Below, piece by piece: positions 35,416-53,485 of a DNA stretch of 64,000 nt. The notes beneath the pieces are model-generated. The model had not been told where the DNA came from and searched no databases. It saw only the letters and a list, made by a program, of their open reading frames with translations. This DNA comes from Aliirhizobium smilacinae. Its GTDB lineage: Bacteria; Pseudomonadota; Alphaproteobacteria; Rhizobiales; Rhizobiaceae. The stretch is taken from assembly GCF_006335145.1 (NCBI RefSeq), contig NZ_VDMN01000005.1:62001-126000 (forward strand), read 5' to 3'. The first letter of the stretch is position 1. Each line of letters begins with the position of its first letter. Position numbers and translations under genes: made by a program.

Positions 35416-36408
35416 ATGCTGATTACCACTTTAGATACAGGTACCACCAACACCCGCGTAATCGCATGGCGCGACGGTTCTCCAGTCGCCGAAGCCGGGA
35501 GGCCAGTAGGTGTTCGCGATACAGCCATCACCGGCAGTACGGACAAGCTCAAGGCAGCTGTCGGTGAGGCATTGTCGGAAGCGCTCGCCGGTGCAAACAT
35601 ATCCCCGGACGAGAAATGCCTCTATCTCGCCTCGGGCATGATCACCTCTAACAACGGTCTTCGCGAAATCCCTCACCTGCCCGCACCTGCAGGTAAAACC
35701 GAACTTGCGGCAGGCATGCAGTCGGTCGAACTTCCCGGCGTGACCGACCAGCCGATCTGGCTTATCCCGGGTGTCAAGAACAGGGCCGGTGCCATTTCCA
35801 TCGATGACTGCGATGAAATGGACATCATGCGCGGCGAGGAAACCGAGGCAATCGGCGTGCTGCATGCGCTCGGCATCAGCGGGCCTGCGGTGCTGATCCT
35901 GCCGGGCTCGCATGCGAAATTCGTCGGCATTGATGAAGCCGGCCGGATCTCCGGATCGATCACCACCATTTCCGGAGAACTGCTTGATGTCATCAGCCGC
36001 CATACACTGATTGCCGGATCGGTCGATCATGGTTTCGCCGAGAAGGTCAATTCCGAAGCCTTGCTTAAGGGAGCCGGCGTCGGCGCCCGACTCGGAATAG
36101 GACGGTCCGCTTTTCTCGTGCGCCTCCTTGATCTCTTCGGTGATCTCGACCGCGATGGCCGAGCCAGTTTTCTGCTCGGCGCAGTTCTCGCCAGCGACCT
36201 TATCGCGCTCAAGAGCAGCAACTCGCTTAACGTTCTGCCCGACAGTCGGATCATTGTTGCCGGCAAGGCAGGACTGCGGGACGCGTTGATGGAGCTGATT
36301 GCCGCCGACCCATATTTCACCGGCCCGATCGAGACGGTGCCGGACGGCATACATTCTATTTCTGCCTTGGGCGCCATGGAAATTGCGCGCGTCCGCGGAC
36401 TGATTTGA
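35416..36408 (+). CDS. dgoK: 2-dehydro-3-deoxygalactonokinase
   Basis: A 330-residue DgoK-family kinase (ASKHA fold). The N-terminal phosphate motif TLDTGTTNTRVIAWRDG is followed by YLASGMITSNNGLREIPHLP and by ILPGSHAKFVGIDEAGRISG. The late block is AGKAGLRDALMELI. It phosphorylates 2-keto-3-deoxy-D-galactonate to the 6-phosphate in the De Ley-Doudoroff pathway. It is the first gene of a five-gene operon with an MFS carrier, dgoA and dgoD, and GGGAGGGG precedes its start. Its length matches the family. Confidence 0.94.
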   Translation: MLITTLDTGTTNTRVIAWRDGSPVAEAGRPVGVRDTAITGSTDKLKAAVGEALSEALAGANISPDEKCLYLASGMITSNNGLREIPHLPAPAGKTELAAGMQSVELPGVTDQPIWLIPGVKNRAGAISIDDCDEMDIMRGEETEAIGVLHALGISGPAVLILPGSHAKFVGIDEAGRISGSITTISGELLDVISRHTLIAGSVDHGFAEKVNSEALLKGAGVGARLGIGRSAFLVRLLDLFGDLDRDGRASFLLGAVLASDLIALKSSNSLNVLPDSRIIVAGKAGLRDALMELIAADPYFTGPIETVPDGIHSISALGAMEIARVRGLI

Positions 36409-41995: not shown

Positions 41996-42237
41996 CGCCT
42001 CGGCGCTATCTGCTTGTTAAATGTCTCGCGGTGGTGATCCCAATGTTCTCTCTGTTGTGTGAACTCCGTTTCCAAATATCCTTTGACCAAGTCTCGACCT
42101 CACAGGAGAGATTAAGAGCCAAGGCGTGAAATTAGGCATTGTCCGTTCGAGCGATGCAAAACTGCATGGCTGCGCTGCAATTAACCGTCTTACTGCGGCC
42201 TGCAAATCCGCGTATCCATATGTCAACGAAGCAATGC

Positions 42238-42378
42238 ATCTCCTCCCGCAGAGCTTCGGGTTTCAGGCGACCCTATCCTCCTCCCAAGGGAAGCCTGGCA
42301 GAACGCGGCACTCCTCCTCCCAGCCGTTGTTCTATTATTTTAAAAGCCTGCCGCACCTCCTCCCGCGGCAGGCTTTTT
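42238..42378 (+). ncRNA. Alpha-r14-like trans-acting small RNA with anti-Shine-Dalgarno loops
   Basis: Three perfect CCUCCUCCC motifs (42277-42285, 42313-42321, 42356-42364) each sit in a predicted loop. The stems are CCCT/AGGG, GCGGC/GCCGT and a 10-bp terminator stem AGCCTGCCGC/GCGGCAGGCT, the last followed by TTTTT at 42374-42378. A fourth, imperfect motif is at 42239-42247. Multiple anti-SD loops with the last in the terminator hairpin are the hallmark of the rhizobial alpha-r14 (NfeR1-like) sRNAs and of the related CCUCCUCCC RNAs. They are thought to pair with ribosome sites of transporter mRNAs. The 5' end is uncertain. Confidence 0.75.
42345..42378 (+). terminator. Terminator of the anti-SD small RNA
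   Basis: A 10-bp stem (42345-42354 with 42365-42374) closes a 10-base loop ACCTCCTCCC and is followed by a T run. The loop itself carries the third perfect anti-SD motif. Confidence 0.85.
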
Positions 42379-42424
42379 CATTTCTCCGAAAAGTTGAAAG
42401 CAAGCTGCGGCCGTCTTCTTTGTT

Positions 42425-42450
42425 CTGATCGCTGATCGCTGATCGCTGAT
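42425..42450. repeat. 7-bp tandem repeat
   Basis: CTGATCG is repeated three times and followed by CTGAT, starting about 50 bases after the small-RNA terminator. No gene overlaps it. Confidence 0.8.
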
Positions 42451-42622: not shown

Positions 42623-43378
42623 CTAATCCTCGCGTGCTACGTTACTCAGCGGAGAATGGGTTCCATCTGAAAATCCACGATAACGCAGGTGGCTGCGGTT
42701 GAGATGTGCCCGCATTGCCTCGCGTGCTTGTTCCGCGCTGCCCGAACTGATCGCTTCGCAGATAGCCCGGTGCTCGACTACGGTGTTTTGAATATAGTCT
42801 TGGGTGATCAGGGCGGGGTTGAGCTGCTTCGAAAATGCCGGCTGTGGCAATATCTGCAGGCTCATCAGACTGAAGAACTCGATGAACGCACCGTTATTCG
42901 TCGCTTCTGCAATCGAGCGATGAAAAACGAAATCGAGATGATCGAGCGCAGTTTCGTCTTCCAGCGAGGCCTCGAATTGGCGGGCGGCATTCCATATGTT
43001 GGATTCCTGCGCCCAGGAGCGGCGGACCGCTGCGAGACCAGCGGCATGAACCTCGAAAGCCATCCGCAACTCGATAAGGTCCATGAAAGACGTTTTCAGG
43101 CGAGACAGCGGAGCCAAGGCGGCATCTGCATCAAACATGTCGGCGGCAGCTTCGCCCGTTGAGCGAGGAAGATTGCTGACGAACACACCAACACCGTGAC
43201 GCGCTTCAACGACGCCTTCCGACCTCAGAGCGGAAACGACCTCCCGGATGATCGTTCTGCTGACGCCGAATTGCTGAGACAATTCGCCGAGAGAGCCGAT
43301 CTTGTCACCCTTCGAAAGCTGACTCTCGCCGATATGGCTTTTTAGAGCCTTGATGGTTCGGTCCGTCAATGTTTCCAA
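42623..43378 (-). CDS. GntR family regulator, FCD type
   Basis: A 251-residue FadR-subfamily regulator. A winged helix (about 8-68) contains LGELSQQFGVSRTIIREVVS and then ALRSEGVVEARHGVGVFV. The FCD domain has the acidic/His pattern (ELRMAFEVHAAGLAA, LDFVFHRSIAEATNN, VVEHRAICEAI) that usually forms a metal site for a carboxylate ligand. It begins at a TTG (43378) preceded by GGATGG. It is divergent from the RidA-ABC-hydantoinase operon, and a GGTAA-N2-TTACC palindrome lies between them. Confidence 0.9.
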   Translation of the reverse strand: METLTDRTIKALKSHIGESQLSKGDKIGSLGELSQQFGVSRTIIREVVSALRSEGVVEARHGVGVFVSNLPRSTGEAAADMFDADAALAPLSRLKTSFMDLIELRMAFEVHAAGLAAVRRSWAQESNIWNAARQFEASLEDETALDHLDFVFHRSIAEATNNGAFIEFFSLMSLQILPQPAFSKQLNPALITQDYIQNTVVEHRAICEAISSGSAEQAREAMRAHLNRSHLRYRGFSDGTHSPLSNVARED

Positions 43379-43446: not shown

Positions 43447-43837
43447 GGCGCAGTGATGCTACCACCTCTTCACAAAAATTGTCGTATAGAGTGCGCACAC
43501 TCGGCCGAATGGCACCTCCTCCAAATACCTTTCGGCAGCAATCAGCCAAAAATTTTGTAAAATAAAAATTCTCTATTTTGGTTTTCGAGGAAAAATTAGA
43601 TAAAATATTACCACTGTAAAATATTGATATAATTAGATTTTTTACAAATAAATAAACGATTGCTTTTAGCGAGATAGTACCTCTTGTTTGGATATTGACA
43701 AGAGGTGTTATTTCAATAATCCTTATCCACACAAAAAGCGGAACGGCGCCGACGATATTGAAAATCGATCGGTGACATGTTCCCGGGAACAGGTCCGCGC
43801 AATTCTGCGCGTTCTTAAAATTAAATGGAAAATTGCT
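43447..43837. other. AT-rich promoter region of the RidA-hydantoinase operon
   Basis: About 390 bases without a gene. Positions 43550-43680 are strikingly AT-rich compared with the surrounding GC-rich DNA, with several A/T tracts, suggesting an intrinsically bent or H-NS/nucleoid-protein-type region. I see no small gene in it. Confidence 0.45.
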
Positions 43838-44311
43838 ATGGGTGTCGTCTCCGCACGTCTCTCCGAGCTGGGCATCGTATTGCCTTCGCTAGCGCCGGCT
43901 TCAGGTAATTATATCCCCCACCGACTGGTGGGGAGCCTGCTGTTCATTTCGGGTCAAATTCCACGGATCGATGGCGTGGAGCACTTCGTTGGCGTCGTCG
44001 GCGAAAGTATTTCGCCGGAAGACGGTTACAAGGCGGCGCGGCTGTGTGCGCTCAATATCGTCGCAAGAGTGAATACGGCGTTGGACGGTGATCTTGACCG
44101 GGTCGTCGCCTGCGCGCAGTTGCGTGGTTTCGTCAATGCACCGCCAGAATTCAAGGCGCATCCGGCCGTCATCGATGGCGCCTCGGATCTGCTTGTCGAG
44201 ATTTTCGGAGAGAAAGGCCGGCATGTCCGCACCGCGCTCGGTGCGGGATCGCTGCCGCGCGGATCATCGGTCGAGGTCGATGCCGTATTTGAAGTCGCAT
44301 TGAAAGCCTGA
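43838..44311 (+). CDS. RidA (YjgF/TdcF) family protein
   Basis: A 157-residue member of the reactive imine deaminase/endoribonuclease L-PSP family, of the longer YjgH-like type. [11 protein letters not shown] marks the N-terminal sheet. The [20 protein letters not shown] block and [20 protein letters not shown] complete the trimer-interface pocket. RidA proteins hydrolyse enamine/imine intermediates. Being first in an operon with an aminotransferase and hydantoinase makes detoxification of an imine product a sensible inference. The ATG at 43838 has GGAAAATT upstream; the frame from 43688 is a false extension. Confidence 0.9.
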
Positions 44312-44333
44312 CAACAAAAAAGGGGAACTGGCC

Positions 44334-45089
44334 ATGACCGGGACCAGCGCATCGGAACAAGCCATCGCCATGAGCGGCGTCAATAAGTGGTACGGCCATA
44401 TGCAGGTGCTGAAGGGGATCGATCTCGAGGTCGGCCGAGGCGAACACATCGTTCTGTGCGGTCCATCGGGCTCTGGCAAGTCCACTCTTATTCGGTGCAT
44501 CAATCACTTGGAGGAAATTCAGCAGGGCACAGTCACCGTCAATGGGACGACGCTCAGCCAGAAGGGGAGCAATGCCGACCATATCCGCCGTGATGTCGGC
44601 ATGGTGTTCCAGCAGTTCAACCTGTTTCCGCATTTGACAGTTCTCGAAAACTGCATGCTGGCGCAGCGCCGGGTGCGCAAGGCATCGGTTGCCGATGCCA
44701 AGGAAAAGGCGATGCGCCATCTTGAGCGCGTCCACATTGCCGAGCAGGCGCTGAAATATCCGGCGCAGCTTTCCGGCGGCCAGCAGCAGCGCGTGGCGAT
44801 TGCCCGTGCACTCTGCATGGATCCCAAGATCATGCTGTTCGATGAGCCGACCTCGGCACTCGACCCAGAGATGGTGAAGGAGGTTCTCGATACGATGATC
44901 TCGCTCGCCGACGATGGCATCACGATGATCTGCGTCACGCACGAGATGGGATTTGCCCGCGCCGTCGCCCACCGCGTCATCTTCATGGACCGCGGCGAGA
45001 TCATCGAAAGCGCCAAGCCGGATGTGTTCTTCAGCAATCCGAGCCATGAACGCACCAAGGCGTTTCTCAGCCAGATTCTCAACCACTGA
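44334..45089 (+). CDS. Polar amino acid ABC transporter ATP-binding protein (GlnQ-type)
   Basis: A 251-residue ABC ATPase. Walker [11 protein letters not shown]-loop [12 protein letters not shown], signature LSGGQQQR, Walker [15 protein letters not shown] and the H-loop in [11 protein letters not shown] are all intact. The N-terminal ISxxxKxYG-like [20 protein letters not shown] is typical of the polar amino acid uptake family. It powers the two permeases and the binding protein encoded next. AAGGGGAA precedes the ATG. Confidence 0.95.
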
Positions 45090-45099
45090 GGGGTGGCAG

Positions 45100-45768
45100 G
45101 TGAACTATTCATTCGATTTTAGTCCCGTTTTTGCTGCATGGCCGATGCTTCTCGATGGCATTTTGGGAACATTGAGAATGTCGTCGCTGTCCATGGTCTT
45201 CGGCCTGGCCCTCGGTCTAGTGTTCATGCTGATGCGGATGAGCAAGCTTCCCATGCTGCGTTCGATCGCCATCGGTTACATCGAGCTGATCCGCAACACG
45301 CCGATCCTGGTACAGGTGTTTTTCGTCTTCTTCGGCATGCCGGCACTCGGCATCCGGTTGAGCGGCGAGCAGGCGGCGATCCTGGCGATGACGCTGAACT
45401 GTGCGGCTTACGCAGCGGAGATCGTGCGCGGCGGTGTCCAGTCCATCCGTCCTGGCCAGATCGAGGCGGGCAGGGCGCTCGGCATGCACTCTGTCGATAT
45501 CTACCGCTTCATTGTGTTCCGGCCGGCGATCAGGGCGGTTTACCCGGCTCTCTGCAGCCAATTCATCCTGATGATGCTGAATTCCAGCCTGATGTCGTCG
45601 GTGTCGGCCGAAGAGCTGACCTATTTCGCCCAGACTCTGGATTCCCAGACGTTCCGCAGCTTCGAGATCTATTTCACCCTCGGCGTCATCTATCTGGCGA
45701 TGTCGCAGTTCTTCTCCATCGCTCTCGGCTTGATCGGCCGGGTCTATTTCTCCTACCCGGCAAAGTGA
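45100..45768 (+). CDS. Amino acid ABC transporter permease (HisM/GlnP family)
   Basis: A 222-residue membrane protein with about five TM helices. The family EAA-like loop is GGVQSIRPGQIEAGRALGMH, and YIELIRNTPILVQVFFVFFG is characteristic of polar amino acid permeases. It starts at a GTG (45100), eleven bases after the ATPase gene, with a GAGGGGTGG ribosome site. It pairs with the second permease at 45778. Confidence 0.94.
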   Translation: MNYSFDFSPVFAAWPMLLDGILGTLRMSSLSMVFGLALGLVFMLMRMSKLPMLRSIAIGYIELIRNTPILVQVFFVFFGMPALGIRLSGEQAAILAMTLNCAAYAAEIVRGGVQSIRPGQIEAGRALGMHSVDIYRFIVFRPAIRAVYPALCSQFILMMLNSSLMSSVSAEELTYFAQTLDSQTFRSFEIYFTLGVIYLAMSQFFSIALGLIGRVYFSYPAK

Positions 45769-45777
45769 GGCACTGCG

Positions 45778-46428
45778 ATGATCCGTCAGTTTGGTTGGGG
45801 AGAATTCCTCTTTCTGCTCGAAGGCGCGCGCTGGACCATCGTTCTGTCGCTTCTCGCCTTCACCTTCGGAGGCATTCTCGGTTTGGCCATAGCGCTTGGC
45901 CGTACCAGCAAATGGAAGTCGCTGCGCATCCTCACAGCGACCTACATCCAGATTTTCCAGGGCACGCCGCTGCTGGTGCAGCTGTTCTTCGTCTACTTCG
46001 GCCTGCCGCTTCTCGGCTTCAAGGTCGATGTCTGGGTAGCGCTGACCATCGGTCTGTCGCTCCACACCAGCGCGTTTCTGGGTGAAATCTGGCGCGGCAG
46101 CATCCAGGCCGTTCCCGATGGACAGGGCGAGGCGGCACGGGCGCTTGGCATCGGTTACATGCATCGCATGGTGGATGTCGTGCTGCCGCAGGCCTTTCGC
46201 ATCGGCCTGCCGGCCACCATCAGTTTCCTCGTCAACCTGATCAAGGGCACGGCACTCGCTGCGCTGCTGGGTCTCACGGAGCTTACCCGCTCCGGCCAGT
46301 TGATGGCCAACATCACGTTTCAGCCGCTGCAGGTCTATGGGGCGGTGGCAGTGATCTACTTCTTCATCTGCCTGCCCCTGACCTACTGCAGTTCACGCAT
46401 CGAACGACGTCTCAACGCCGCGCGGTAA
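45778..46428 (+). CDS. Amino acid ABC transporter permease (HisQ/GlnP family)
   Basis: A 216-residue second permease of the same system. It has about five TM helices and the blocks YIQIFQGTPLLVQLFFVYFG and GSIQAVPDGQGEAARALGIG (EAA loop contacting the ATPase). It lies nine bases after the first permease and 41 bases before the binding-protein gene, so the transporter genes form one transcript. Confidence 0.94.
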   Translation: MIRQFGWGEFLFLLEGARWTIVLSLLAFTFGGILGLAIALGRTSKWKSLRILTATYIQIFQGTPLLVQLFFVYFGLPLLGFKVDVWVALTIGLSLHTSAFLGEIWRGSIQAVPDGQGEAARALGIGYMHRMVDVVLPQAFRIGLPATISFLVNLIKGTALAALLGLTELTRSGQLMANITFQPLQVYGAVAVIYFFICLPLTYCSSRIERRLNAAR

Positions 46429-46469
46429 AACAAGAACGAATGTCAAAAAAACCAACCAGAGGTAACTAC

Positions 46470-47315
46470 ATGTTCAATACAGCATTGACCTTTTCGCGTT
46501 CGAAAGTCCTGGGCGGTCTTGCCGCCGCACTGTTCGCCGCGACCTCTTTTGTAACGACGGCGCTTGCCGTGACGCCCGAGGAAATCAAGGCTAAGGGTAC
46601 CGCGACCATCGGCGTGCAGATGGATCAGTTTCCGTGGGGCTTCATCGACGCCAAGGGCGGCAATGACGGTTTCGACATCGAGATCGCCAAGCTGATCGGC
46701 AAGGAACTCGGCGTCGAGGTGAAGTTCGAGCGCATTACCGGCCAGAACCGCATTCCGCTGCTGGTCAACGGCAATGTCGACTTCCTGGTGCCGTCGATGA
46801 CAATCACCGAAGAGCGCGCCAAGGTCATCCAGTATGTCATTCCCTATTCGTCGAACGACATTACCGTCTGGGGCAAGACGGATGCTGCAATCAAAAGCGG
46901 CGAGGATCTCGGTAAATATGTGATCGGGGTCAACCGCGGCAGCGCCTTCGATACGTTGCTCGTCAAGACGGCTCCGGCAAACACCGAGATCAAGCGCTTC
47001 GACGACGATGCGACAACCGTTCAGTCGCTTCTTTCCGGTCAGGTCGATGCCATCCTCGGGAGCGTGACCTACGGTCTTGTCATCAAGCAGACCGGTTACG
47101 ACAAGCAGTTCGAGCGCAAGTTCAAAGTTGCGGACAATTTCCAGGGCATGGCCGTCCGCAAGGGCGATACCGAAATGCTGGCCTTCCTCACCGATTTCGT
47201 GACCCGTCATACTGCCGATGGTTCGCTGGACGCGATCTACAAGAAGTGGATCGGCGTCGACCGCGCAAAACTGCCGACAACGCTGCCGGGCGTCGACTTC
47301 ACCGGCAAGCAGTAA
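46470..47315 (+). CDS. Amino acid ABC transporter periplasmic binding protein
   Basis: A 281-residue SBP family 3 protein. The signal peptide ends near the ALA-VTP junction (about residue 33). The family pattern GTATIGVQMDQFPWGFIDAK and then GFDIEIAKLIGKELGV is clear, and the two-lobe cleft residues follow the LAO/glutamine-binding type. The ATG at 46470 with AGAGG upstream is preferred to an ATG at 46440. The neighbouring hydantoinase and aminotransferase suggest that the ligand is a cyclic or N-substituted amino acid derivative. Confidence 0.93.
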   Translation: MFNTALTFSRSKVLGGLAAALFAATSFVTTALAVTPEEIKAKGTATIGVQMDQFPWGFIDAKGGNDGFDIEIAKLIGKELGVEVKFERITGQNRIPLLVNGNVDFLVPSMTITEERAKVIQYVIPYSSNDITVWGKTDAAIKSGEDLGKYVIGVNRGSAFDTLLVKTAPANTEIKRFDDDATTVQSLLSGQVDAILGSVTYGLVIKQTGYDKQFERKFKVADNFQGMAVRKGDTEMLAFLTDFVTRHTADGSLDAIYKKWIGVDRAKLPTTLPGVDFTGKQ

Positions 47316-47322
47316 CGCTGAA

Positions 47323-47358
47323 GCCCTGCGCGACCGCCGAAGAGCCGCCGCGCAGGGC
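47323..47358 (+). terminator. Intergenic hairpin between transporter and hydantoinase genes
   Basis: A 10-bp stem GCCCTGCGCG/CGCGCAGGGC with a 16-base loop lies eight bases after the binding-protein stop. It has no T run. It probably adjusts expression or protects the upstream mRNA, as often seen after SBP genes. Confidence 0.5.
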
Positions 47359-47490
47359 ACCAGAAACATCAACCACTGAAGAGCTTTTGACCCCCGCCTG
47401 TTTGCGCGGGCGGGGACAGGCCGCTGCACGCCGAAATTTGAGCCTTCCCGGCGCGGCAAGACAGCTCACACATGGAGCATGAGTTAGAAA

Positions 47491-49581
47491 ATGGCGAAAG
47501 ATGGCATGCAGATCAGGGTCGGTGTCGATATCGGCGGCACCTTCACCGACGTTGCGATGGAGGTCGGCATCACGCTCCATTCGATCAAAGTCCTCACCGA
47601 CTATTCCTTCCCCGAAAACGCGATCGTCAAGGGCATCCGCCAGGTGGCCGAGGTTGCCGGTGTCGAGCTTTCGCAGATCGACACGATCATTCACGGCACC
47701 ACGCTGGCCACCAACGCGCTGATCGAGCGCCGTGGTGCCCGCACCGCCTTCATCACCACCAAGGGTTTTCGCGACGTCATCGAGATGCGCACCGAAAGCC
47801 GTTTCGAGCAGTATGACCTCGACATCGTGCTGCCGGCGCCGCTGGTGCCACGCAACGAACGTTTCGTCATCGACGAGCGCATCGGTGCCGATGGTTCGGT
47901 GCTGAAAGCTCTCGATCTCGCCGAGGTCGACGCGCTGTGCGACGAGATCATAGCCGCCGATTATAACAGCGTCGCCATCGGCTTCATCCATTCCTATCTC
48001 AACGGCGCGCATGAAAAGGTCGTCCGCGACCATCTTCTGGCCAAGAAAGCCGATATTTCGGTGTCGATCTCGTCGGAAGTGTCGCCGCAGATGCGCGAGT
48101 TCCAGCGTTTCAACACCGTCTGCGCCAATGCCTTCGTCAAGCCGCTGATGGCATCCTATCTCAACCGGCTCGTCGGCCGTCTGACCGAAGAGGGCACGCG
48201 TTGCCCGGTCTTCATGATCCATTCGGGCGGCGGTATCATCAGCGTCGAAAGCGCCATCGAATTTCCGGTGCGCCTGCTCGAATCCGGGCCTGCCGGCGGG
48301 GCGATCTTCGCGGCGCATATCGCCAGCAGCTACGGTCTCGACCAGGTTCTGTCCTACGACATGGGCGGCACGACCGCAAAGATCTGCCTGATCGAGAACC
48401 AGACGCCAAAAACCTCGAAAACCTTCGAAGTGGCCCGTACCTGGCGCTTCAAGAAGGGTAGCGGCATGCCGATCTCCATTCCGGTCATCGAGATGGTCGA
48501 AATCGGCGCCGGCGGCGGCTCGATCGCCACCATCGACAGCATGCGCCAGATCCGTGTCGGTCCGCACAGCGCCGGCTCCGAGCCGGGTCCTGCCTGCTAC
48601 GGCCGCGGCGGCGCCAACCCGACCGTTACCGATGCTGACCTGATCCTCGGCCGCCTCGATCCTGACGAGTTTGCCGGTGGCACGATGAAGCTCGACCGTC
48701 CGGCTTCCGACAAGGCGATGGATGCGGATCTCGCATCGAAGCTCGACACCGACATCGCTACGGCCGCCTATGGTCTGAGCGAAGTGGTCGACGAGAACAT
48801 GAGCAACGCCGCCCGCATGCATGCGGTGGAAAACGGTAAGGAGCTTTCCGAGTTCACAATGATCGCCTTTGGTGGTGCCGCCCCCATCCATGCTGCCCGC
48901 CTGTGCGAAAAGCTCGGCATGTCGGACCTGCTGATCCCGCCGGGTGCGGGTGTCGGTTCGGCCATCGGTTTTCTGCGCGCGCCCTTCGGATTCGAAAGTG
49001 TGCGCAGCGCCTATAGCCGCCTCAGCCGTTTCGAGGCAGGAGGGATCAACCAGACGATCATGGACCTCAGCGCCGAGGCAATCTCCTTCGTGCGCTCGGG
49101 TTCGCCCGAGGCTGACCCGGATCTCGAATGCACGGCCTACATGCGTTATGTTGGCCAGGGCTGGGAAGTGCCGGTCACAATTGACGTGCGCGATTATGCC
49201 GATGCGGATGGCGATCTGTTCAAGACACTGTTCGACGAACAGTACGAGCATTTCTTCGGTCGCGTCATCGATGGTCTCGATGTCGAGATCGTCAGCTGGT
49301 CGCTGCGTGCCACCTCCAAGGTCGCACCGCCTGAACGGGTCGGCAGAACGGCAAAGGCCGGCGCCGCCAAGGTTCGTGGCACCCGCGAGATTTTCGATGT
49401 GCAGGAAGAAACCTTCCAGCAGGCATCGGTCGTGTCGCGCACCGACATGAAGCCGGGTGACTGGGTTGCCGGCCCCGCGGTCATCACCGAACGGGAAACC
49501 TCGACCATCATTACCGCCAGCCGCGAAGTCATCATGCAGGCCGATGGCTGCCTGCTCATTCGCGTCAAGCAGAGCGCCTGA
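47491..49581 (+). CDS. hyuA: Hydantoinase/oxoprolinase A subunit
   Basis: A 696-residue HyuA-type ATP-dependent amidohydrolase subunit with an ASKHA fold. The phosphate loop RVGVDIGGTFTDV is at the N-terminus. HGTTLATNALIERRGARTAF and the second nucleotide block LSYDMGGTTAKICLIE follow. With HyuB it opens cyclic amides such as 5-oxoproline, hydantoins or N-methylhydantoins at the cost of ATP; acetone-carboxylase-like use is a remoter option. It follows the ABC transporter, so the imported ligand is the likely substrate. Its length matches the family. Confidence 0.93.
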   Translation: MAKDGMQIRVGVDIGGTFTDVAMEVGITLHSIKVLTDYSFPENAIVKGIRQVAEVAGVELSQIDTIIHGTTLATNALIERRGARTAFITTKGFRDVIEMRTESRFEQYDLDIVLPAPLVPRNERFVIDERIGADGSVLKALDLAEVDALCDEIIAADYNSVAIGFIHSYLNGAHEKVVRDHLLAKKADISVSISSEVSPQMREFQRFNTVCANAFVKPLMASYLNRLVGRLTEEGTRCPVFMIHSGGGIISVESAIEFPVRLLESGPAGGAIFAAHIASSYGLDQVLSYDMGGTTAKICLIENQTPKTSKTFEVARTWRFKKGSGMPISIPVIEMVEIGAGGGSIATIDSMRQIRVGPHSAGSEPGPACYGRGGANPTVTDADLILGRLDPDEFAGGTMKLDRPASDKAMDADLASKLDTDIATAAYGLSEVVDENMSNAARMHAVENGKELSEFTMIAFGGAAPIHAARLCEKLGMSDLLIPPGAGVGSAIGFLRAPFGFESVRSAYSRLSRFEAGGINQTIMDLSAEAISFVRSGSPEADPDLECTAYMRYVGQGWEVPVTIDVRDYADADGDLFKTLFDEQYEHFFGRVIDGLDVEIVSWSLRATSKVAPPERVGRTAKAGAAKVRGTREIFDVQEETFQQASVVSRTDMKPGDWVAGPAVITERETSTIITASREVIMQADGCLLIRVKQSA

Positions 49582-49595
49582 ACGGAGGATTTGAC

Positions 49596-51233
49596 ATGAA
49601 ACCCAACGCACTTTCCGAAGTCCACATGCAGATCATGTGGAACCGTCTGATCTCCGTTGTCGAAGAACAGGCCGTCACCCTCATCCGCACTGCCTTCTCG
49701 ACCAGCGTGCGTGAATCCGGCGACCTGTCCGCCGGTGTCTTCAACCGCGGCGGCAAGATGATCGCCCAGGCGGTCACCGGCACGCCCGGCCACGTCAACG
49801 CCATGGCCGAAGCTGTCGGCCATTTCATCCGCGATATAGGCCCTGAAAACATTTTCGAGGGCGATGTCTACATCACCAACGACCCGTGGAAGGGAACCGG
49901 CCACCTGCACGACTTTACCGTCGTCTCGCCCAGCTTCCGCAGGGGCGCGCTGGTCGGTTATTTCGCCTGCACGGCGCATGTGGTCGATGTCGGCGGCCGT
50001 GGTTTTGGCCCGGATGCGAACGAGGTCTACGAAGAAGGCATCTTCATCCCGATCATGAAGTTTGCCGAGCGTGGCAAGGTCAACAAGGATCTCGTCAACA
50101 TCCTGCACAACAACGTGCGCGAAAGCCAGCAGGTGGTCGGCGACGTCTATTCGCTGGCGGCCTGCAACGAGATCGGCCATCGCCGCCTGATGGACATGAT
50201 GGAAGAGTTCGAACTTGCCGATCTGGAGGCGCTCGGCGAATTCATCTTCAAGCGCAGTTATGATGCCACGATCGAGCGAATTGCCGCCCTGCCGAAGGGC
50301 TCCTATTCCAACACCATGCGCGTCGACGGTTACGGTTCGCCGATCGACATCGCCGTGCGTCTCGATGTGGCGGACGACTATATCCTTGCGGATTTTGACG
50401 GCACCTCGCCCCCGAGTCCGAAGGGCATTAATTGCCCGATCATCTATTCGGCGGCCTATGCCTGCTACGGCATGAAGTGCTCGATCGCGCCCGAAATCCC
50501 CAACAACCACGCCTCGCTTCTGCCGTTCCGCGTAACTGCGCCGCAGAATTGCATCCTCAATGCCCAGCATCCGGCACCTGTTTCTGTCCGCCACGTGCTT
50601 GGCCATCTGGTGCCTGATGCCGTTCTCGGGGCCGTGCACAAGATGCTGCCGGGCAAAGTGCCTGCGGAAGGGGCAGGCGCGTTGTGGAACCTGCATGTCA
50701 GCGTTCGCCCGCTGCAGGGCGACAAGGCGCCGGCCGATGGTGGCCAGCGCGCCGAAGTGCTGCTGTTCAACAGTGGCGGCGCCGGTGCACGCTCGACCCT
50801 CGACGGGCTCAGCGCCACAGCCTTCCCGAGCGGTGTGCATTCCATGTCGATCGAGGCGACCGAGCATGTCGGCCCGGTGATCTTCTGGCGCAAGGAATTG
50901 CGTGACGGTTCCGGTGGCGCCGGCCAGTTTCGCGGCGGTCTCGGGCAGGTGGTGGAAATCTCGACGACCGAAGGTCACGAGATGCATTTCAACGCCATGT
51001 TCGACCGTGTCGACAATCCGCCGCGCGGCCGTGAGGGTGGCGAGAACGGTGCGGCCGGTGCTGTCCTGCTCGACGACGGAACCCGCCTTCAGACCAAAGG
51101 GCGTCAATATGTGCCGGTTGGCCGCAGGTTGATCCTGCAGCTTCCCGGCGGCGGCGGCTACGGTGCGCCGGACAAGCGCGATCCGGCCGCGGCACAGCGC
51201 GACAAGGATTTCGACTACGCGTCGAAGGGCTGA
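49596..51233 (+). CDS. hyuB: Hydantoinase/oxoprolinase B subunit
   Basis: A 545-residue HyuB-family protein and partner of the gene 14 bases upstream. The diagnostic segments are IRTAFSTSVRESGDLSAGVF and GDVYITNDPWKGTGHLHDFT, plus a C-terminal glycine-rich LPGGGGYGAP. GGAGG precedes the ATG. The A/B pair forms the complete ATP-dependent hydrolase. Confidence 0.94.
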   Translation: MKPNALSEVHMQIMWNRLISVVEEQAVTLIRTAFSTSVRESGDLSAGVFNRGGKMIAQAVTGTPGHVNAMAEAVGHFIRDIGPENIFEGDVYITNDPWKGTGHLHDFTVVSPSFRRGALVGYFACTAHVVDVGGRGFGPDANEVYEEGIFIPIMKFAERGKVNKDLVNILHNNVRESQQVVGDVYSLAACNEIGHRRLMDMMEEFELADLEALGEFIFKRSYDATIERIAALPKGSYSNTMRVDGYGSPIDIAVRLDVADDYILADFDGTSPPSPKGINCPIIYSAAYACYGMKCSIAPEIPNNHASLLPFRVTAPQNCILNAQHPAPVSVRHVLGHLVPDAVLGAVHKMLPGKVPAEGAGALWNLHVSVRPLQGDKAPADGGQRAEVLLFNSGGAGARSTLDGLSATAFPSGVHSMSIEATEHVGPVIFWRKELRDGSGGAGQFRGGLGQVVEISTTEGHEMHFNAMFDRVDNPPRGREGGENGAAGAVLLDDGTRLQTKGRQYVPVGRRLILQLPGGGGYGAPDKRDPAAAQRDKDFDYASKG

Positions 51234-51299
51234 TCAGAGAGGTTGTCGGCGGGAAAAGCCCCGCCGGTTCCGACCAACTGCTTTCCGGGAAATTTGGAT

Positions 51300-53485
<2,186 letters not shown>

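Follow-up and report, generated by a model that had tools for sequence, protein, structure and literature searches.

The window, which is the entire 64-kb stretch of contig C5 analyzed here, contains a gene for a small RNA (sRNA) of the ar14 ("cuckoo") family in the four-hairpin form of the SmelA099 type, which should be transcribed from about position 42224 and act in trans at Shine-Dalgarno sites. The probability of this reading is roughly 0.8. Family, number of hairpins, promoter position, clade, and the replicon tendency of the four-hairpin form were demonstrated. The gene is named the window copy in the following. The gene and its parts are:

42224 to 42384, plus strand: sRNA gene with a predicted transcript of about 160 nt and four anti-Shine-Dalgarno (aSD) hairpins, delimited by alignment to SmelA099 and by the borders of homologues
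42227 to 42258, plus strand: hairpin 1 (CGAAGC...GCTTCG), aSD motif CUCCUCCC at 42240-42247, from the fold and covariation, outside the Rfam model
42263 to 42298, plus strand: hairpin 2, CUCCUCCC at 42278-42285, from the fold and the Rfam alignment
42300 to 42333, plus strand: hairpin 3, CUCCUCCC at 42314-42321, from the fold and the Rfam alignment
42342 to 42377, plus strand: hairpin 4, CUCCUCCC at 42357-42364, terminator-like with a U run, from the fold and the covariation set

The Rfam model RF02344 (ar14) matched positions 42258 to 42380 on the plus strand with 95 bits and an E value of 3.9e-16. This score exceeds the gathering cut-off of 58.8 bits and places the window copy in ar14, which was the sole Rfam family at gathering score in the 64-kb window. 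A preliminary description of this DNA had called an alpha-r14 RNA and had named a missing covariance-model hit as one outcome speaking against it; the search was run, a match was found, and the family call stands. The three hairpins with variable stems and the unpaired CCUCCUCCC typical of ar14 are hairpins 2 to 4 of the window copy, the only ones that the Rfam model covers, and the fourth is added at the 5' side. The fold of positions 42215 to 42385 had a free energy of -62.9 kcal/mol (z = -5.7), as good as none of 200 shuffled sequences, and contained four aSD-loop hairpins. Loop 1 reads UCUCCUCCC and loops 2 to 4 read CCUCCUCCC. Four consecutive aSD-loop hairpins, the trait of the RFMSmelA099 group, are present, with loop 1 one letter off the sequence stated for this group. 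In both strands of the whole window, the octamer CUCCUCCC occurs six times compared to 1.93 expected occurrences. The three motif-bearing loops noticed previously all exist, and the feature is real as judged from the ar14 match and the fold, but it contains four hairpins, and the interval of 42238 to 42378 assigned to it begins within the first of them.

Since an aSD hairpin is located upstream of the Rfam model, the gene was extended to about 42224 to 42384, giving 160 nt, and its start was placed near 42224 because SmelA099 on pSymA begins 3 nt before the equivalent of hairpin 1. SmelA099 is described in the accessible part of the source as a 160-nt S. meliloti RNA from deep sequencing (PMC2873474). 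Among the non-self matches listed from 198 Rhizobiaceae genomes, 41 of 45 began between 42217 and 42230 and all 45 ended between 42377 and 42389. When a four-hairpin query was used to search PLSDB, 487 plasmid records matched, and 56 of 60 matches sampled at even steps spanned the complete unit from 42224 to 42384 in one alignment. Covariation was evaluated in 40 sequences, 39 four-hairpin copies from the genus plus SmelA099. In hairpin 1, 95.8% of the cells were paired and five of nine pairs had changed on both sides; the 14-bp helix of hairpin 4 was paired to 99.3%. Over the whole structure, both partners had changed in 19 pairs, compared to 9.7 in shuffles, and this number dropped to 5 to 9 when the pairing partners were slid against each other. 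A simple terminator scan, which considered loops of 3 to 8 only, reported none at the window sRNA. An additional aSD motif 17 to 22 nt before the Rfam start was present in 39 of 120 ar14 copies, while 75 were three-hairpin copies and 6 contained too few motifs to be classed; the copies came from the host genome and 23 further members of the genus, for which 121 matches had been listed, and the one left out, G012:C88:1-76, scored 36 bits and touches the end of a contig. The 5'-most, fourth hairpin belongs to the sRNA gene. This corrects the Rfam borders for the whole subclass, for which the model omits the first of the four aSD hairpins, and in case of the window copy puts the 5' end about 34 nt too late.

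Three elements are located upstream of the predicted start:

42164 to 42178, plus strand: conserved promoter motif GCATGGCTGCGCTGC, 13 of 15 positions in agreement with the template used, from a best-match motif search
42154 to 42167, plus strand: LsrB-like inverted repeat ATGCA-N4-TGCAT, from the sequence
42213 to 42218, plus strand: -10-like hexamer TATCCA, three of six positions identical to TATAAT, from promoter comparison

In all 48 four-hairpin copies, the promoter motif was located between -98 and -90 relative to the Rfam start. Of 99 three-hairpin copies, 76 contained it, 66 of them between -58 and -56 and 10 elsewhere, and a motif with at least 10 of 15 matches was absent from the other 23. 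The motif is therewith 37 to 38 nt further upstream in four-hairpin than in three-hairpin copies, and this shift equals the size of the extra hairpin. As a control, a more distal upstream stretch reached the same score in 5 of the 48 four-hairpin and 8 of the 99 three-hairpin copies. With a start at about 42224, the LsrB-like repeat is positioned at -70 to -57, and the LsrB site of NfeR1 is at -72 to -57 of its start in the accessible part of the report (PMC10746234). In the window copy, TGCA-N5-GCAT, the two halves of the repeat are one base closer to each other than in the published TGCA-N6-GCAT of NfeR1. The -10 match was 4 or 5 of 6 in 34 of the 40 promoters listed and just 3 of 6 in the window copy, and a sigma-70 promoter scan found no site for it, an outcome that, like that of the terminator scan, carries no information here; the promoter of the window copy is below the class average.

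A promoter of this kind could also indicate a silent or decaying paralogue, with an intact body but a promoter that no longer works well. The TATCCA hexamer, the N5 instead of N6 spacing, and the Rfam score, the lowest of the six ar14 copies in the host genome, are consistent with decay. So are a second four-hairpin copy of the host genome, L039 (G000:C9), in which the aSD motifs are already damaged in loops 2 and 3 and intact in loops 1 and 4, and the situation in S. meliloti, where just one of six ar14 copies was reliably detected on Northern blots according to the accessible part of the literature. In the window copy, however, the stems and each of the four CUCCUCCC motifs are intact, and the upstream motif has been kept at 13 of 15 positions, which makes decay rather improbable.

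In case of an active sRNA of the SmelA099 type, a promoter that contains an LsrB-like site would drive transcription from about 42224 up to the fourth hairpin, where it would end. Each of the four loops would display CUCCUCCC, which resembles the 3' tail of the 16S rRNA. By pairing with an mRNA at its Shine-Dalgarno sequence, a loop would block the ribosome and thereby repress translation, with the four loops probably being redundant. The targets are probably many and scattered, namely, mRNAs for transport and catabolism that have sites of the GGGAGG type, and not the operon to the right of the gene. We infer transcription of the window copy, repression by it, and its targets, with trans-acting repression at Shine-Dalgarno sites as in the case of NfeR1, since the window copy carries the core letters of NfeR1 four times. 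The accessible parts of two reports describe for NfeR1 an aSD-dependent silencing of ntrB and also of two transporter mRNAs, and a redundancy of its three aSD motifs (PMC10746234, PMC7143759).

The genes in the neighborhood include the following:

35416 to 36408, plus strand: dgoK (2-keto-3-deoxygalactonokinase), the best nearby candidate target, with GCGGGAGGGG directly before the start, from identity and pairing rank
40705 to 41556, minus strand: IclR regulator, divergent from the sRNA, an arrangement shared with pNCHU2750a, from Pfam and synteny
42623 to 43378, minus strand: GntR/FCD gene, the right neighbor of the sRNA, from Pfam

The interval between IclR and GntR given in the preliminary description agrees with Pfam. 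On the left side, this place is not an arbitrary one. The left flank with dgoK, an MFS gene, kdgA, dgoD, a dehydrogenase gene, and IclR recurs together with the sRNA on plasmid pNCHU2750a of Neorhizobium sp. NCHU2750. A tandem repeat of CTGATCG, three copies plus a part at 42425 to 42450, directly follows the sRNA terminator.

The sRNA could be a local regulator of the galactonate operon on the left, dgoK-MFS-kdgA-dgoD-dehydrogenase, by pairing with the leader of its first gene, dgoK, which was named from its 84.8% identical pNCHU2750a counterpart. With -24.4 kcal/mol in pairing with the sRNA loops, dgoK ranked second among the 341 starts called in a 400-kb part of the contig, in a rough scan that used approximate gene calls and left accessibility out of the score; this rank is no more than suggestive, given that the best of several neighbors was chosen. 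The synteny with pNCHU2750a comprises the operon, IclR, and the sRNA, and the dgoK leader is conserved on this plasmid. The leader GAACCGCGGGAGGGGTT was identical in all three homologues found in 57 genomes, also where no sRNA adjoins: a third dgo-IclR cluster, in genome G072, has a dgoK homologue with the same leader but contained no aSD array within the surrounding 16 kb that were read, and the ar14 copies of G072 are on other contigs. A local regulator of this operon is rather improbable, and dgoK is an unproven lead, albeit a better candidate than the operon on the right.

This right-hand operon, with its ABC transporter and hydantoinase genes, had initially been proposed to be among the possible targets. 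By Pfam, the right flank contains GntR, RidA, an ABC transporter, hydantoinases A and B, and an aminotransferase. Proximity speaks for regulation of this group, and the start of the first permease gene pairs fairly well (-17.4 kcal/mol, rank 38 of 341). Nevertheless, aSD pairing was no better than for other genes of the window (one-sided P = 0.40), with a median of -8.4 kcal/mol for 10 genes called at 42.4 to 53.5 kb versus -7.9 kcal/mol for the 40 others. Seven genes of the group were found in the list of 341 starts, the other six at ranks 122 to 311, with RidA (unmatched), the aminotransferase, and the last gene not included. The cassette of RidA, ABC transporter, hydantoinase, aminotransferase, and KdgD at 43670 to 53440 is present on many plasmids, and the 12 best of 434 records showed about 80 to 83% identity over 9.6 to 10.8 kb on rhizobial plasmids with other surroundings. 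One of four cassette plasmids inspected (CP087972) has a four-hairpin copy on the left; in the other three, the stretch read, about 5 to 6 kb upstream of the cassette, contained no aSD array. Repression of this operon is thus very unlikely.

Even less probable is a three-hairpin, NfeR1-type RNA that starts near 42258 with an accidental hairpin upstream; the Rfam model begins at this position, but the offset of the promoter motif in 48 of 48 copies, the covariation in hairpin 1, and the 5' end of SmelA099 argue for the longer gene. A coding gene is likewise very improbable: two overlapping plus-strand open reading frames do cross the hairpins (42126 to 42428, 100 aa; 42139 to 42435, 98 aa), but the relatives contain indels of 1 to 3 bases in loops and linkers, and base-pair covariation explains the conservation.

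On the 123 nt that both forms have in common, the four-hairpin copies group in a single clade. In a maximum likelihood tree of 147 rows that was built from these 123 nt, which exclude the extra hairpin and the promoter, all 48 four-hairpin rows were on one side of a branch with a support of 96/89.7; 7 of 154 rows, including the four-hairpin copy L145, were omitted. The tree was enlarged by SmelA099, eight plasmid copies (that of pNCHU2750a was already included as L185), SmelA075, and one pSymB copy. Of the resulting 158 rows, 57 were four-hairpin rows, among them SmelA099 and the window copy, and these were again on one branch side (98/95). The window copy and SmelA099 belong to the same four-hairpin clade. 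The family had originally been given as alpha-r14/NfeR1, and NfeR1 has three hairpins; with four hairpins and a position outside the three-hairpin rows, the window copy is instead of the SmelA099 type, which is a clade of its own on these 123 nt. The tree distance of the window copy was 0.11 to 0.16 to plasmid copies in other surroundings versus 0.18 to the syntenic pNCHU2750a copy. This hints at gene conversion or replacement, which 123 nt are too short to settle.

In the genomes examined, the four-hairpin form tended to be located on plasmids or secondary replicons and the three-hairpin form on the chromosome. Nine genomes of the genus have a contig that reaches 3 Mb or more. Of their 29 three-hairpin copies, 28 were on this large contig, and of their 10 four-hairpin copies, 8 were elsewhere (Fisher P = 6e-6, relatedness ignored). 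These were 39 of 40 matches, with a match in G055 (53 bits, below the cut-off, on a 4.3-Mb contig) omitted, and 9 of 14 genomes with at most about 10 contigs and fetched copies; the 3-Mb limit was our own choice. Among the five genomes without such a contig, G049, G054, G058, and G059 were tabulated apart together with the host genome, and G002 was left out. G054 and G059 have the two forms on different contigs, and G049 and G058 contain the three-hairpin form alone, with one copy on a contig of 117 kb. The host genome contains three three-hairpin copies on its 2.2-Mb contig and four-hairpin copies on C5, C8, and C9. The two four-hairpin copies on a large contig, in G015 and G043, are identical over the 47 nt compared, and a further exception is on a 4.0-Mb contig of G265 from another genus. 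Due to these and other exceptions, the tendency is strong but not absolute. When PLSDB was searched with a three-hairpin query, 414 records matched, 4 of them over 80% of the query, and the best rows were Sinorhizobium megaplasmids. Together with the three motifs of the pSymB copy, this shows that three-hairpin copies exist on large plasmids. With a stringent cut-off of E <= 1e-20 and a small number of candidates scored in each genome, matches were obtained in 24 of 198 evenly drawn Rhizobiaceae genomes, host included (14 of 99 genera). Concerning contig C5 itself, repC was absent from it and found on C2, C10, and C11 of the host genome, and a type IV secretion coupling protein was likewise absent and found on C1, C9, and C11. 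The synteny of the left flank with pNCHU2750a is the sole hint that C5 may be a plasmid.

Among the known systems, SmelA099 (smrA6, RFMSmelA099) of S. meliloti pSymA is the counterpart of the window copy, with four aSD-loop hairpins, 160 nt, and the same clade. A secondary replicon is a further shared trait, although a putative one in case of C5. Hairpin 4 is the same, hairpin 1 differs at two positions, and hairpins 2 and 3 have different stems. The transcript of SmelA099 has been detected by RNA sequencing, and that of the window copy is predicted. NfeR1 (SmelC397), the ar14 RNA of the S. meliloti chromosome, shares the aSD loops in hairpins and, in the published text accessible, an equal distance of the LsrB site from the start, but has three hairpins; the window copy is set apart from it by the clade side of the three-hairpin relatives and not by the sequence of NfeR1 itself. 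SmelA075 of pSymA shares aSD loops and plasmid location but has three hairpins by its published borders and groups with the three-hairpin rows. The Rhodobacter RNAs RS0680a and CcsR, names that we take to belong together, contain similar aSD-loop modules but two loops per RNA instead of four, and the CcsR RNAs share their transcript with a gene for a DUF1127 protein, as far as the accessible descriptions go. AbcR1 and AbcR2 (ar15) are, in the available portions of the literature, sRNAs with aSD motifs, an LsrB site in the AbcR1 promoter, and predicted targets rich in ABC transporter mRNAs; they are a different family, and ar14 was the one family that reached its gathering score in the window.

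Family, aSD mechanism, and four-hairpin form are already published. The abstract of the "cuckoo" paper reportedly describes two to four hairpins. Three- and four-hairpin groups with the CCUCCUCCC loop motif, genomes with multiple copies, and copies on each replicon are contained in the accessible part of Reinkensmeier et al. 2011 (PMC3927594). A replicon split or a single four-hairpin lineage was not found stated in the literature searched, which excluded most subscription papers. The window copy is therefore known in kind, and the distribution looks unreported. The four-hairpin subclass constitutes a single lineage, has a conserved promoter motif, and shows a strong tendency to be off the main chromosome. 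It is conceivable, albeit speculative, that the four-hairpin RNAs represent a single old plasmid-borne branch of ar14, and that Rhizobiaceae plasmids carry their own multi-loop masker of Shine-Dalgarno sequences with a host-sensing promoter of the LsrB type, which may retune transport and catabolism of the host, including cargo such as dgoK. In S. meliloti, nitrogen metabolism and nodulation are under the influence of the chromosomal relative, and it can now be asked, in a testable way, why plasmids of rhizobia maintain such an RNA themselves.

Two further observations concern other contigs and plasmids. Among the matches listed, Paracoccaceae contigs contained runs of four to eight aSD motifs spaced 35 to 52 nt, similar to hairpin arrays (L231, L239, L247, L277, L278, L284, L289, and L297), in a pattern scan of genome contigs that also matched Streptomyces and Clostridia and is of descriptive use only. 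In 16 of 18 records common to the protein and sRNA listings, the four-hairpin sRNA of rhizobial plasmids is preceded, at a distance of about 105 nt, by a gene in the same orientation that codes for a conserved protein of about 108 aa with no Pfam match; no credible relative was found in the window (best E = 0.15). The loci include L157:3572-3898, L158:3572-3898, and L161:3582-3923. Genes for an SOS peptidase, LigD, and ImuA follow in two of four annotated loci and LigD in a third, and relatives of the protein with about 44 to 52% identity are present on plasmids of Acinetobacter, Pseudomonas, and enterobacteria.
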